Source of the DNA: Pacificispira spongiicola
Lineage (GTDB): Bacteria > Pseudomonadota > Alphaproteobacteria > UBA8366 > Aestuariispiraceae
Direction: 5' to 3'
NCBI RefSeq assembly: GCF_012926505.1
Contig: NZ_JABBNT010000002.1
Span: 434,001-498,000, forward strand
DNA length: 64,000 nucleotides
The position numbers and the translations under genes were made by a program. Positions 23,658-28,912 of this stretch are shown here, piece by piece (within the stretch, counting starts at the first letter, position 1; each line of letters begins with the position of its first letter). The notes below the pieces were generated by a model that saw only the letters and a list, made by a program, of their open reading frames with translations, did no database searches and was not told the DNA's origin.

Positions 23658-24020
23658 ATGCGTCGCCCCATGGAAAGATACAGGAACGTCGTTCTGACGA
23701 AGGCACGCCTTGTGTCGATCGTCGCTGGAATCGCGCTTCTGACCGGGTGTTCCAGCGACCTTGTGACCCCGGCGACCGTTCTGATGGCGAGCGCCGCCGT
23801 CGTGATCAACGAAGACAAAACCCCCGGCGATATCCTGGCCAGCGCCGTAACGGGACAGGATTGCGACACAATCCGCAAAAGCCGTGACAAGGGCCCGCTG
23901 TGCCGTCCGCCGCAGGAAGAAGTTATCGAGGCCCCGGTCTATTGTTACCGGACCCTCGGCAAAATCGACTGTTTCCGGTCCCCCGATCCCTATGGTTACG
24001 ACCAGCCTGAAGTAAACTGA
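23658..24020 (+). CDS. Small putative lipoprotein
   Basis: 120 residues. The signal has a basic N-terminus, hydrophobic stretch VSIVAGIALL and lipobox LTGC. The mature part contains VINEDKTPGDILASAVTGQDC and four further cysteines, some in CYRTLGKIDCF, which could pair as disulfides. No family recognised. ATG at 23658 has a strong AGGAGG site eight bases upstream. It stands alone between yfgM and the DUF2794 gene. Confidence 0.72.
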   Translation: MRRPMERYRNVVLTKARLVSIVAGIALLTGCSSDLVTPATVLMASAAVVINEDKTPGDILASAVTGQDCDTIRKSRDKGPLCRPPQEEVIEAPVYCYRTLGKIDCFRSPDPYGYDQPEVN

Positions 24021-24178
24021 GCGCTGAGCCGGAACTTCTCGTTCGGTATAGGGCAATTTGACACTTCCGTGGCGCAGCGCATCGGGGTAGGCTTCAAACA
24101 ACGAAACCTGCTCAGACGCGCTTGCCATTGCTTATGCAGGCGCGCCCAAGCCGGACATACTGGATCGGAAAGGGGCCA

Positions 24179-24520
24179 ATGACGCAACTGATCGATTTGT
24201 CGGAATACCGCCGCAAAGGCGCCGGCAAAAAGCGGACCTATTTCGATCAGGCGGAGTTGCGCCGACTTCTAGACATCTATTCGCGACACGTCGCTACCGG
24301 GGAATGGCGGGATTACGCCATCGACTTCAACGGTCCCGTCGCGATCTTCTCAATTTTCCGACACACGCATGAATCGCCTGTCTTCGCGGTCATGAAGCGA
24401 CGCAACGGCAAGCACAACGAATTCATCGTACGGTCGCGCGGTCAGGAACTGAAACGCTGCCGCGACCTCGGCGACGCGCTCAAGGTCTTCGAAAAGAAGT
24501 TGAGCTTGATCGATTCCTGA
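24179..24520 (+). CDS. DUF2794 domain protein
   Basis: 113 residues matching the DUF2794 family of alphaproteobacteria: FDQAELRRLLDIYSRHVATGEWRDYAIDF, then AIFSIFRHTHESPVFAV and the C-terminal DALKVFEKKL. No function is known. ATG at 24179 is preceded by AAAGGGG; the conserved region begins about 20 residues in. The last codons contain one GANTC site and lie just before the gcrA upstream region. Confidence 0.85.
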   Translation: MTQLIDLSEYRRKGAGKKRTYFDQAELRRLLDIYSRHVATGEWRDYAIDFNGPVAIFSIFRHTHESPVFAVMKRRNGKHNEFIVRSRGQELKRCRDLGDALKVFEKKLSLIDS

Positions 24521-24945
24521 TTTCACCGCCCTCATTCTCCCGTCTGGGCGGTCAAAATCCAAAAAATTTAGATAAACTGCGCACACAAGATGTTGTGGGC
24601 CGCTGCCTTGCCGATTCGCCCGGATTCACGGCGGATTCCTCTGCCTGATACCGCCCCCGCGATTCCCGGACGGCGACTCGGAATGAGAATCGGCGCTTGA
24701 CCGCCCCCCGGAATCGCAGATTTTCACAGCCAATTCGCGGCGAATCGAGATTTGGGCTTGAGACTCGATTTTACCGCGTATATTGTGCCTTCGAGAGCTT
24801 CGGCCACAAGATGTATTGATTTTCAGCTGGGGGTCCCTCTTCCGGCAACAGGGGAACTGCATCCAAACCGAAGTGCGGGACGAGACCAACCCCCGACTCT
24901 GCCGGACCGAACCGGCTGCGGGGAAAGAGCAGGAAGAGGTCGGCA
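24521..24945. other. 425-base region upstream of gcrA
   Basis: No gene is evident. It contains nine GANTC sites within 24613-24766 plus one at 24895, nested inverted repeats and a possible -10 TATATT at 24779-24784 preceded by TTGAGA at 24758-24763 (spacing of 15, short). It probably holds the gcrA promoter. Confidence 0.7.
24613..24766. promoter_or_regulatory. Dense array of nine GANTC (CcrM-type) methylation sites
   Basis: GATTC at 24613, 24623, 24634 and 24661; GACTC at 24675 and 24762; GAATC at 24687, 24711 and 24742. Chance expectation for 154 bases is below one. Sites sit in inverted repeats: CGATTCGCC (24612-24620) with GGCGAATCG (24739-24747), and GCGATTCC (24659-24666) with GGAATCGC (24710-24717). 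Confidence 0.9.
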
Positions 24946-25278
24946 ATGGACTGGACGGATGAGCGGGTCGCCCTACTCAAGGGAATGTGGACCAACGGAT
25001 ACACGGCTCGGCAGATTGCCGAGAAACTCGGCGGGGTCACCCGCAACGCCGTCATCGGCAAGGCCCATCGTCTCGGCCTGTCGTCCCGGCCGACGCAGGT
25101 GAAGCGCCACACGCCGCTGCCGATCCCCCATGTGGTCGAACGGCATTGCCAATGGCCGATCGGTCATCCCGGCACGGACGAGTTCCACTTCTGCGGCAAG
25201 AATGCGGTGCCGGGTAAGCCCTACTGCGAATCCCACTGCAACGTCGCCTATCGTCGGAAAGACGATAACGCCGCCTAA
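24946..25278 (+). CDS. gcrA: Cell-cycle regulator GcrA, short form
   Basis: GcrA is an alphaproteobacterial sigma-70 cofactor that binds promoters carrying methylated GANTC sites. The N-terminal DNA-binding domain is diagnostic: MDWTDERVALLKGMWTNGYT, ARQIAEKLGGVTRNAVIGKAHRLGL. The C-terminal domain (sigma-binding in Caulobacter) is a compact Cys/His segment CQWPIGHPG ... YCESHC. At 110 residues it is shorter than Caulobacter GcrA (about 170), the linker being almost absent. A GGAAGAGG ribosome-binding site precedes it. The GANTC array upstream suggests autoregulation. Confidence 0.95.
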   Translation: MDWTDERVALLKGMWTNGYTARQIAEKLGGVTRNAVIGKAHRLGLSSRPTQVKRHTPLPIPHVVERHCQWPIGHPGTDEFHFCGKNAVPGKPYCESHCNVAYRRKDDNAA

Positions 25279-25338
25279 GCCGAACCATTCGGTTCGACAC
25301 CGACGGCGCGCCGACGCGGTTGATGGAGGAAACGCCCC

Positions 25339-26463
25339 ATGTCCGATACGAATGGTGCAGGGTCTTCCGACACGCGCGGCGCCGCCGCCCGGCGGAGTGG
25401 CAACCTTAGGGTCGTCACCGTCTTCGCCGGTTTCGCGCTGACCGCTCTATTCATCTATCTGATGGTAATCGCGGAAGCGATCCTTCTGCCCTTCGCCATC
25501 GCTGTCTTCTTCGTCATCCTGCTGGATTCGTTGAGCGAGAGAATCTGCCGCATCAAGATCGGCGGACATTCGCTTCCCGGATGGGTCGGCATGACGATCG
25601 CGGTTCTTATCCTGATCCTAGCCTTTGTCGCGCTTGCCAACCTGATCCGCAGCAATATCGCCGCGGTCAGCGCCGCTCTGCCCGGCTATGAAGAAAATTT
25701 CAAAGGCTATCTGGACCGCATCCTGGCCCTGGTCGGCGCGCAGGAATTGCCCAGCATTCGCGACCTCGCCAACCAGATCGACATGCGCAACACGCTGGGC
25801 AGCATGGTATCCGCCTTGGCGTCGGTAACCGGCAATACGATGACGGTGATCTTCTATATCGTCTTCATCCTGCTGGAACAGGTGACCTTCGGCCGCAAGG
25901 TCGATGCCTTGTTCAAAAACTCGGAAGACAGCCGCCGCGCAAAGGAGATGATCGCGCGGATTTCGAACGACATTCAGAAATATATCGGCCTGAAGACCTT
26001 CGTCAGCGCGATCACCGGGACCCTGTCCTATATCGTCATGTCGCTGGTCGGTGTCGACTTCGCCGCGTTCTGGGCTGTGCTGATTTTCATACTGAATTTC
26101 ATTCCCTATATCGGCTCCCTCGTCGGGGTCGCCTTTCCGGCCGTTCTGACCCTGGTTCAGTTCGGTACGCCGATTCCCTTCATCATCACGACGGTCGTTC
26201 TGGCCAGCGTCCAACTGGCCGTCGGCAATGTGATCGAACCGCGCCTGATGGGCCGGTCCTTGAACCTCAGCCCCCTGGTTATCCTACTGTCTCTGGCTGT
26301 TTTCGGACAGATATGGGGCGTGGCCGGCATGGTCCTGTCCATGCCCTTCATGGTGATCGCGATGATCGTCTGTGCCGGGTTCGAGGCAACCCGTCCGATT
26401 GCCGTACTGCTGTCCGCGACAGGCAATATCGACGGATCGGAAGAGACATCGGACAAGCAATAG
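25339..26463 (+). CDS. AI-2E family transporter (PerM-like)
   Basis: A 374-residue inner-membrane protein with six to eight hydrophobic helices. The family pattern shows in the N-terminal helix pair, the long soluble segment (about 100-190), and the C-terminal IPYIGSLVGVAFPAVLTLVQFG and VIEPRLMGRSLNLSPLVILLSL motifs. Members have been linked to export of autoinducer-2 or to sodium/proton exchange; the substrate here is unknown. It starts 60 bases after gcrA and may share its transcript. Confidence 0.9.
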   Translation: MSDTNGAGSSDTRGAAARRSGNLRVVTVFAGFALTALFIYLMVIAEAILLPFAIAVFFVILLDSLSERICRIKIGGHSLPGWVGMTIAVLILILAFVALANLIRSNIAAVSAALPGYEENFKGYLDRILALVGAQELPSIRDLANQIDMRNTLGSMVSALASVTGNTMTVIFYIVFILLEQVTFGRKVDALFKNSEDSRRAKEMIARISNDIQKYIGLKTFVSAITGTLSYIVMSLVGVDFAAFWAVLIFILNFIPYIGSLVGVAFPAVLTLVQFGTPIPFIITTVVLASVQLAVGNVIEPRLMGRSLNLSPLVILLSLAVFGQIWGVAGMVLSMPFMVIAMIVCAGFEATRPIAVLLSATGNIDGSEETSDKQ

Positions 26464-26548: not shown

Positions 26549-26576
26549 TTGACAGCGACTCCAGCTTCGCTATATC
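26549..26576 (+). promoter_or_regulatory. Candidate nrdA promoter with GANTC in the spacer
   Basis: TTGACA at 26549-26554, 16 bases, then TATATC at 26571-26576. GACTC at 26557-26561 lies inside the spacer and GATTC at 26518-26522 upstream, so methylation by CcrM and GcrA action are plausible. Confidence 0.7.
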
Positions 26577-26582
26577 TTGTGC
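26567..26582 (+). promoter_or_regulatory. NrdR-like box 1
   Basis: Core CTATATCTTG matches nine of ten positions of the NrdR box core CwAtATaTwG and is followed by TG. It overlaps the -10 element. Confidence 0.65.
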
Positions 26583-26596
26583 TTCGCAGCGATGGT

Positions 26597-26612
26597 GATC
26601 GATATCTAGTGG
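26597..26612 (+). promoter_or_regulatory. NrdR-like box 2
   Basis: Core CGATATCTAG (eight of ten consensus positions), followed by TG, 30 bases (three turns) after box 1. The two share C-ATATCT-GTG. Confidence 0.6.
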
Positions 26613-26812: not shown

Positions 26813-26920
26813 CGAAGAGACGATCGCCGGGTCGATATGCCATGACGAGATCGCGAACGATCCGAAGGCATACAGGCGACGCTGAGACATGGGGGTAAGT
26901 AGACAGTGCCGGACGGAACC

Positions 26921-28912
26921 ATGAACACAGCGCAAGAAGACAATCTGCGCCAAAAGGAAATTGCCCGCGAAGCCGCCGCCAAATGGCTGGACGACGCCAA
27001 GGTCAATCGCGCCGCGACGGCTGAGGACGCCGTTGCCGAAGAGGCGGAGATGGACGCGGAGCTACGCGACCTCAAACAGAACGACCATGGCATCCGCGTC
27101 CATGTCGACCGAAGCCGCGACGCGCTGTTGACGGAATTCGGCAAGGCGACGCTGACCGACCGTTATCTGATGCCGGGCGAAAGCTACCAGGACATGTTTG
27201 CGCGCGTGGCAATGCATTACGCCGACGACTCCGCCCATGCCCAGCGCCTCTATGACTATATCTCCAAGCTTTGGTTCATGCCCGCGACGCCGGTTCTGTC
27301 CAATGGCGGGACGAAGCGCGGTCTGCCGATCAGCTGCTTCCTGAACGAAAGCAACGACAGCCTGGAAGGCATTGTCGGTCTGTGGAACGAGAATGTCTGG
27401 CTGGCGGCGCGTGGCGGCGGGATCGGCAGCTATTGGGGCAACCTGCGTTCCATCGGCGAAACGGTCGGCGGGAACGGCAAGACATCCGGCGTCGTGCCCT
27501 TCATTCGCGTCATGGATTCGCTCACCCTGGCGATCAGCCAGGGGTCCCTGCGGCGTGGCTCGGCGGCGGTCTATCTGCCGATCTGGCACCCGGAAGTCGA
27601 GGAGTTCATCGAAATCCGCCGACCGACCGGCGGTGATCCGAACCGCAAGGCGTTGAACCTGCACCACGGGATCGTCATCACCGACGATTTCATGCGCGCG
27701 GTGGAAAACGACGAAGAATGGAAACTGGTTTCGCCGAAAGACCGGGCGACGATCCGCAAGGTCCGCGCCCGCGACCTGTGGATCCGCATCCTGACGGCGC
27801 GTATCGAAACCGGCGAACCCTACATCCTCTACGGCGATCATGTGAACCGGAACCTCCCGGAACATCAGAAGCTCGCCGGTCTGACGGTAAAGACGTCCAA
27901 CCTGTGCTCCGAAATCACGCTGCCGACCGGCATCGACCATCACGGAGAGCAGCGTACGGCGGTCTGCTGCCTGTCCTCCCTCAATCTGGAAAAATATCTG
28001 GAATGGGAAAAGAACGAAGGCTTCGTGCCCGACGTCATGCGTTTCCTGGACAATGTACTGCAGGACTTCATCGACAACGCGCCGGACGATTTCGCCCGCG
28101 CGCGATATTCGGCCATGCGCGAACGCTCCGTCGGCCTCGGTACGATGGGTTTCCATTCCTTCCTGCAAGCCATGATGATTCCGATGGAAGGGGTCATGGC
28201 GAAGGTATGGAACACGCGCATGTTCAAGCACATCCGTGCCCAGGCCGATAAGGCCTCCCGCGATTTGGCGGAAGAGCGCGGCGCCTGCCCGGACGCCGCC
28301 GAATTCGGCATCATGGAACGCTTTTCCAACAAGATGGCGATTGCGCCGACGGCATCCATTTCCATCATCTGCGGCGGTACGTCGCCCGGAATCGAACCGA
28401 TCGCGGCCAACAGCTTCACCCATAAGACGTTGAGCGGTTCGTTCACCGTCCGGAACCGGCACCTGAAGGCGTTGCTGGCGGAAAAAGGCCAGGATAACGA
28501 CGACACGTGGTCCTCGATCTCCGTCAACGAGGGATCGGTTCAACATCTAGACTTCCTCTCCCAGGAAGAAAAAGATGTCTTCAAGACGGCGTTCGAAATC
28601 GACCAGCGCTGGCTGATCGACCATGCCGGCGACCGCACCCCCTTCATCTGCCAGGCGCAGTCGCTGAACGTCTTCCTGCCGGCCGATATCCACAAGCGTG
28701 ACCTGCACCAGTTGCACTTCCGCGCCTGGAAACAGGGCGTGAAGAGCCTGTATTACTGCAGGTCCAAGTCGATCCAACGCGCGGAAGCGGACAGCACCGT
28801 TCGGATTTCCGCCTCCGGTTCCGTCACGGTCCCCTTTGCCGGGCGCGTCAATTCCGGCGACCTGCCGAAGGCGGTTCAGCCTGACTATGAGGAATGCCTG
28901 AGCTGCCAGTAA
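26921..28912 (+). CDS. nrdA: Class I ribonucleotide reductase alpha subunit
   Basis: Reduces ribonucleotides to deoxyribonucleotides for DNA synthesis. 663 residues. Seen in order: GLPISCFLNES (first redox Cys), TSNLCSEITLP (radical Cys and the catalytic Asn/Glu), AVCCLSSLN (second redox Cys), SLYYCRS (radical-relay Tyr pair) and the C-terminal CLSC that exchanges with thioredoxin. No ATP-cone is recognisable in the first 90 residues. These features place it in class I, which needs an NrdB subunit, yet no nrdB is adjacent. The start is uncertain: ATG 26921 is given, but a GTG at 26906 has a better-spaced GGGGGTAAG site. It is a single-gene unit ended by a terminator. Confidence 0.92.
   Translation: MNTAQEDNLRQKEIAREAAAKWLDDAKVNRAATAEDAVAEEAEMDAELRDLKQNDHGIRVHVDRSRDALLTEFGKATLTDRYLMPGESYQDMFARVAMHYADDSAHAQRLYDYISKLWFMPATPVLSNGGTKRGLPISCFLNESNDSLEGIVGLWNENVWLAARGGGIGSYWGNLRSIGETVGGNGKTSGVVPFIRVMDSLTLAISQGSLRRGSAAVYLPIWHPEVEEFIEIRRPTGGDPNRKALNLHHGIVITDDFMRAVENDEEWKLVSPKDRATIRKVRARDLWIRILTARIETGEPYILYGDHVNRNLPEHQKLAGLTVKTSNLCSEITLPTGIDHHGEQRTAVCCLSSLNLEKYLEWEKNEGFVPDVMRFLDNVLQDFIDNAPDDFARARYSAMRERSVGLGTMGFHSFLQAMMIPMEGVMAKVWNTRMFKHIRAQADKASRDLAEERGACPDAAEFGIMERFSNKMAIAPTASISIICGGTSPGIEPIAANSFTHKTLSGSFTVRNRHLKALLAEKGQDNDDTWSSISVNEGSVQHLDFLSQEEKDVFKTAFEIDQRWLIDHAGDRTPFICQAQSLNVFLPADIHKRDLHQLHFRAWKQGVKSLYYCRSKSIQRAEADSTVRISASGSVTVPFAGRVNSGDLPKAVQPDYEECLSCQ

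Follow-up and report, generated by a model that had tools for sequence, protein, structure and literature searches.

A dense array of nine GANTC sites lies upstream of gcrA in the 64,000-nt stretch of Pacificispira spongiicola DNA that we analyzed (the window), and its retention across the genus indicates that it is maintained by selection. We lean, by a small degree, toward the view that this array serves as an upstream control region of a predicted sigma70 gcrA promoter, one that senses CcrM methylation and is activated by hemimethylation. The gcrA promoter would then probably read the methylation state of its own DNA and, hence, the time since that DNA was last copied.

The gene downstream of the array, taken to be gcrA in the original prediction, matches PF07750 (E=2.7e-38) and encodes a GcrA cell cycle regulator of 110 aa on the forward strand (24946..25278). 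It is separated from the stop codon of the DUF2794 gene (24520) by an intergenic gap of 425 bp, within which the array occupies 24613..24766. All nine predicted sites were reproduced at exactly the same positions: GATTC at 24613, 24623, 24634, and 24661; GACTC at 24675 (the fifth site) and 24762 (the ninth and last); and GAATC at 24687, 24711, and 24742. The ninth site overlaps the −35 hexamer TTGAGA (24758-24763) within TTGAGACTC (24758..24766, forward strand), such that the hexamer ends with the A of this GACTC (24763). A candidate −10 element, TATTGT (24781..24786, forward strand), follows after a 17-bp spacer and falls within the family-conserved CGTATATTGTG; both elements were assigned from the sequence together with a family alignment. 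Transcription is predicted to start near 24793, relative to which the center of the ninth GANTC would lie at approximately −29. Judged by the placement of a GANTC in or next to the −35/−10 elements, TTGAGACTC and TATTGT together have the form of a GcrA/CcrM-regulated sigma70 promoter. Among ten family members, the TTGAGA[C/G]TC (TTGAGASTC) at the −35 position was invariant, and conservation within the intergenic region was highest over the promoter as a whole, TTGAGASTC...CGTATATTGTG. An Rfam scan of 24000-25400 returned no RNA family at E<=1.

Over the entire window GANTC is depleted (147 occurrences versus 350 expected from dinucleotide shuffles), and the local expectation is 0.31-0.34 sites per 150 bp, versus the nine observed in the array; the original estimate of fewer than one expected site is thus in line with the computed value of ~0.3. 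The Poisson probability of at least nine sites was ~5e-11 to 1e-10 per counting window and ~2e-4 after multiplying by the genome length, while 5000 dinucleotide shuffles of 24601-24780 yielded a maximum of seven GANTC and a mean of 1.6. GANTC was enriched 26-fold in the array region, with the next best pentamer of the form NN-N-NN enriched at most fivefold. A sliding-window count, which had been proposed as a check, was run on a 400-kb sample of the host genome outside the window, where GANTC occurs at 2.0 per kb; no 154-bp stretch of this sample contained five or more sites, the maximum being four.

Alignment of the gcrA upstream regions of relatives, likewise proposed at the outset, revealed the array in every congener examined, and under strong constraint. 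Five congeners have seven to eight GANTC per 154 bp at the same place upstream of gcrA, and five to seven of the sites align exactly, while the DNA outside the sites is only 51-57% identical to the window; from the fourth power of the flank identity, less than one aligned site would be expected, versus the five to seven observed. It is because sites have been kept while their flanks diverged that we consider the array to be under selection.

The dense form of the array has a narrow distribution. Other family members have four to six GANTC sites per 154 bp, or fewer. Among 80 named gcrA loci the densest upstream 154-bp count was 0-2 in most and 7-8 in three, namely two congeners and a Micavibrio MAG (L139), the latter having eight GANTC per 154 bp and a perfect DnaA box inside the array. 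In a class survey of 60 genomes of different families, GANTC was enriched approximately twofold upstream of gcrA, and a single genome (L318) reached six sites. Further, GANTC was absent from the 450 bp preceding gcrA in 22 of the 60 alphaproteobacterial families, and hence such an array is no general requirement for the control of gcrA. Since dense arrays were few in both surveys, they indicate that the dense gcrA array is a lineage-specific elaboration that appears more than once. It may recur across lineages, because the Micavibrio MAG and L318 are dense too and the A. tumefaciens array has been published. This last case had been overlooked in the claim that no array so dense was described at gcrA: the A. 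tumefaciens gcrA promoter has 6 GANTC in 250 bp, and methylation lowers its activity (PMC11514494).

The sites were originally described as nested dyads, and both outer pairs exist: the inverted repeat 24612-24620/24739-24747 is exact over 9 nt, and 24659-24669/24707-24717 is 91% identical over 11 nt. When all bases except the GANTC sites were shuffled, inverted repeats at least as good arose in 28% (by arm length) and 11% (by count) of trials, and the array strand folded no better than shuffled sequences (z = −0.88). As similar repeats arise with the sites fixed and the fold is not unusual, the dyads are a by-product of GATTC/GAATC polarity and carry no extra signal, and we rejected nested dyads or a cruciform as a structural element. 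The proposal of a methylation-state sensor or multi-GcrA platform survives as a fair hypothesis, given the presence of ccrM, the conservation of the array, and its enrichment for the YGAKTCK motif; its nested-dyad element does not. The original prediction did not include the overlap with the −35 element, the sister arrays at ccrM and smc, or the NrdR-like boxes on either side of the array, all taken up here.

The polarity itself was as described, with mostly GATTC on the left and mostly GAATC on the right (center bases in order, TTTTCA/AAC), and it is conserved in congeners. These have mostly GATTC or GAGTC 5' of CTTGACC and, 3' of it, GAATC and then a final GACTC or GAGTC. The CTTGACC itself (24696..24702, forward strand), which congener alignment showed to be conserved in the genus between the GATTC-type left and GAATC-type right sites, resembles a −35 element without a −10. 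For Caulobacter GcrA the extended motif is YGAKTCK (quoted in PMC7987155); for B. subvibrioides GcrA there is no extended motif (PMC7987155). Given the polarity of the sites, YGAKTCK is oriented forward in the left half and backward in the right half. Matches in either orientation were found at 28 of the 50 array sites in six genomes, versus 25/138 in the background; 26 of the 50 were convergent and two the opposite, with forward and backward counts of 13 versus 2 in the left half and 0 versus 13 in the right. The −35 site, AGACTCG, does not match the motif, though the array overall is enriched for it. Spacings near 11 and 20 bp recur in the array, and phasing at 10.5 bp was detected in five congeners (p 0.002-0.03, the orthologs not being independent tests) but was not significant in the window (p=0.16). 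Phasing of the ccrM and smc arrays described next was not significant, and a general helical phasing rule for GANTC arrays was therefore rejected.

Clusters of at least six GANTC per 154 bp were found, among the loci inspected, only at gcrA (nine), smc (eight), and ccrM (seven), with the proviso that the search proceeded via tight GANTC triples and could have missed clusters of six or more that have none. Genome-wide, tight triples numbered 34, versus three in a reversed control, and wider-gap triples 76 versus seven. The trio of arrays at gcrA, smc, and ccrM recurs in two complete congener genomes. At smc, eight GANTC are packed into the 88 bp directly upstream (G000:C1:400271-400358); five to six of them are kept in congeners, and fewer beyond the genus and its nearest genus. 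The ccrM promoter has seven GANTC upstream, of which the positions −126, −106, −79, −57, −46, and −39 are fixed in most of the genus and largely common to the family, and the site pair −46/−37 persists in most of the order. The host genome encodes both GcrA and CcrM: ccrM, whose absence had been named as grounds for abandoning the original prediction, was found, and its product has N6_N4_Mtase and RAMA domains, with CcrM as the best NCBIfam model (632 bits, short of the 830 that this model sets as its strict Caulobacter cut-off). The same genome has a second N6_N4-type DNA methylase gene (G000:C12:3432-4415), a GGDEF (diguanylate cyclase) gene with five GANTC upstream (G000:C12:422725-422796), and a dnaA-dnaN intergenic region (G000:C13, about 197500-197760) with four GANTC per 154 bp and an NrdR-like palindrome.

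The gcrA array is flanked by palindromes at 24584-24597 and 24805-24818 that fit the NrdR box, scanned for with what we take to be its consensus letters. The distal one, CACAAGATGTTGTG (24584..24597), is a perfect match, and the genome has just one more, a CACWANATNTWGTG match (G000:C14:457354-457367) upstream of a small HNH-endonuclease-like gene. The downstream one, CACAAGATGTATTG (24805..24818, at about +13 to +26), is 221 bp, or 21.05 helical turns, from the distal box, and a degenerate NrdR-box-like element, CGCGTATATTGTG (24775..24787), lies over the −10 region, where relatives keep CCGTATATTG. NrdR operators are 16-bp palindromes paired 15-16 bp apart (PMC12051234), and we accordingly looked for pairs with a spacer of 15-16 bp, tolerating 14-17. 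As a positive control, the window has such a pair, CTATATCTTG and CGATATCTAG, 30 bp apart (26570..26609), upstream of the ribonucleotide reductase gene nrdA (26906-28912); a box pair is also present at nrdJ, and nrdR scored over the cut-off in all five genomes. In 164 kb of the host genome only two pairs scored at least 15/16, at nrdA (15) and at ccrM (16). The ccrM pair (33 bp apart, 16/16 matches) is near perfect and kept through most of the family. At gcrA, pairs in relatives (one box at −10, the other at about +20; 31 bp start-to-start) score 13-15; that of the window, with its degenerate −10 box, scores below threshold. Across the class, an NrdR-type pair was found upstream of gcrA in 19 of 60 families, versus 3 of 60 in 3.4-fold longer neighboring DNA, and the pair spacing peaks at 31 (15 genomes) and 32 (five genomes), with none in equal-length background.

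We give even chances to the broader proposal that, in Alphaproteobacteria, the gcrA promoter integrates two replication signals, (i) CcrM methylation via the GANTC array, which is dense, oriented, and helically phased in the host genus, and (ii) dATP via the NrdR box pair. The NrdR link is a more surprising reading than the array itself. Our literature search found ribonucleotide reductase operons as the known NrdR targets, and no control of gcrA or ccrM; neither did it find a publication linking NrdR to GcrA, the texts that name both concerning, going by their titles and abstracts, an Acinetobacter methylase and E. coli dnaC. If the boxes are functional, the cell-cycle module would also be tied to the dNTP pool, and NrdR would repress an epigenetic cell-cycle module, not only ribonucleotide reductases.

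How the array might work is suggested by studies of GcrA elsewhere. GcrA binds GANTC when methylated and, at ctrA P1, protects the −35 region (PMC3667746), and it works with sigma70 (PMC7987155); in Caulobacter, ctrA P1 has a GANTC at about −29 (PMC4287350) and is activated when hemimethylated (PMC8116508). By analogy, passage of the replication fork would render all nine sites hemimethylated at once, and the gcrA promoter would then be most active, probably with GcrA-RNA polymerase binding its −35 site, as happens at ctrA P1, and with additional GcrA along the array. Promoter activity would fall as rising CcrM methylates the sites again; thus, fork passage probably activates the promoter and full methylation probably damps it. 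With many sites, the response could depend on the re-methylated fraction, in a graded or cooperative manner. GcrA is expected to act on ccrM as well as on gcrA itself, and the arrays would therefore join activator and methylase in a single feedback loop that has smc as one output. The promoter likely has a second input: with dATP plentiful, it would be repressed through NrdR-type boxes, located at the start site and, in one case, upstream of the array; the pair in the window is partly eroded. The sign of the methylation effect at gcrA is uncertain, because GcrA mostly activates at methylated sites in B. subvibrioides and Caulobacter (PMC7987155), and because in Agrobacterium CcrM methylation lowers PgcrA activity in E. 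coli too, which lacks GcrA (PMC11514494).

That uncertainty bears on the opposite scheme, positive autoregulation, in which GcrA activates gcrA from a fully methylated multi-site platform and fork passage switches the promoter off. We consider this possible but doubtful. GcrA is mainly an activator at methylated GANTC and binds fully methylated better than hemimethylated, and hemimethylated better than unmethylated, sites (PMC3667746, PMC7987155), and the enrichment for YGAKTCK and the helical phasing in five congeners would suit such a platform; however, the sole measured gcrA promoter with a GANTC cluster, that of A. tumefaciens, is repressed by methylation (PMC11514494), and ctrA P1, which shares the −35/GANTC geometry, is activated when hemimethylated (PMC4287350, PMC8116508). 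Methylation might instead act directly on RNA polymerase at the −35 element, with the upstream sites forming no activator platform but a passive sink, which would buffer or titrate CcrM or GcrA. The location of A 24763 at the end of the hexamer and the GcrA-independent effect on Agrobacterium PgcrA in E. coli (PMC11514494) are consistent with this scheme, but a passive sink would need neither conserved promoter-relative positions, GATTC/GAATC polarity, nor phasing, and would not be expected again, with its spacings conserved, at ccrM and smc; we regard it as unlikely.

It is very unlikely that the array is incidental and that another factor organizes the region, for example NrdR looping between the distal and promoter boxes. 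The distal-to-downstream box distances in six congeners (209, 210, 221, 231, 232, and 232 bp, or 19.9-22.1 helical turns) are all close to integer turns, which speaks for a loop, yet the GANTC sites are conserved far above their flanks and the smc array exists without NrdR-like box pairs. Still less credible is an origin of the array in chance, composition, or a repeat artefact, or its action as a cruciform formed by the nested dyads: the exact 9-nt dyad is all that speaks for these, while the shuffles, Poisson tests, and 400-kb sample rule out chance clustering, the dyads are expected once the sites are given and the single-stranded fold is ordinary, and conservation in congeners already refutes such accounts. 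Control of gcrA by DnaA in the host genus was rejected, as no TTATCCACA within one mismatch was found upstream of gcrA in six congeners. Perfect DnaA boxes (TTATCCACA) do occur upstream of gcrA in other members of the family and order, those having at most five GANTC per 154 bp; that the array has taken the place of DnaA control is no more than suggestive (Fisher p=0.07). No CtrA sites of the form TTAA-N7-TTAA were found at gcrA in the genus. With parB as the anchor, three complete genomes place gcrA at ~78-83% of the distance to the antipode; because parAB is reported nearer ter in Rhodospirillales (PMC8116508), we dropped the argument from chromosome position to gcrA timing.

Among the features described here, GcrA promoters under methylation control were already known, as was a gcrA promoter rich in GANTC; the density of the array, the array trio, the conserved polarity, and the NrdR boxes are new. 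Single GANTC sites are the textbook case of methylation-timed promoters. The present data point to selected multi-site arrays at the genes for the methylation reader, the methylase, and the condensin Smc, and with such arrays the relation between site number and the sharpness of a replication timer becomes directly testable. In E. coli, clusters of GATC at oriC and the dnaA promoter are read by SeqA and Dam, and the gcrA array resembles these in principle, in that methylation sites clustered at a replication-control gene would register fork passage; it differs in its methylase and motif, and in that GcrA activates with sigma70 and does not sequester DNA.

Close parallels exist with GcrA- and CcrM-dependent sigma70 promoters such as Caulobacter ctrA P1, where a GANTC likewise lies on or adjoining the −35 element at ~ −29 (PMC3667746, PMC4287350, PMC8116508). 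Unlike the array of nine in 154 bp described here, however, most such promoters have one or two GANTC near the start, and only 11 of 96 cell-cycle transcription start sites in Caulobacter have more than one within 50 bp (PMC4287350). Another parallel is A. tumefaciens PgcrA, in which GANTC is also over-represented upstream of gcrA in a CcrM-bearing alphaproteobacterium and for which dependence on methylation has been shown (PMC11514494). It belongs to a different lineage and is sparser (6 sites in 250 bp versus 9 in 154 bp), and the array described here is set apart from it by the sister arrays at ccrM and smc, by conserved polarity and positions, and by the NrdR-like boxes. The latter resemble the NrdR operators of ribonucleotide reductase genes in being paired palindromes with a 15-16 bp spacer (PMC12051234), found here at nrdA and, in relatives, at gcrA and ccrM; in the literature searched, the known NrdR targets are ribonucleotide reductase operons.
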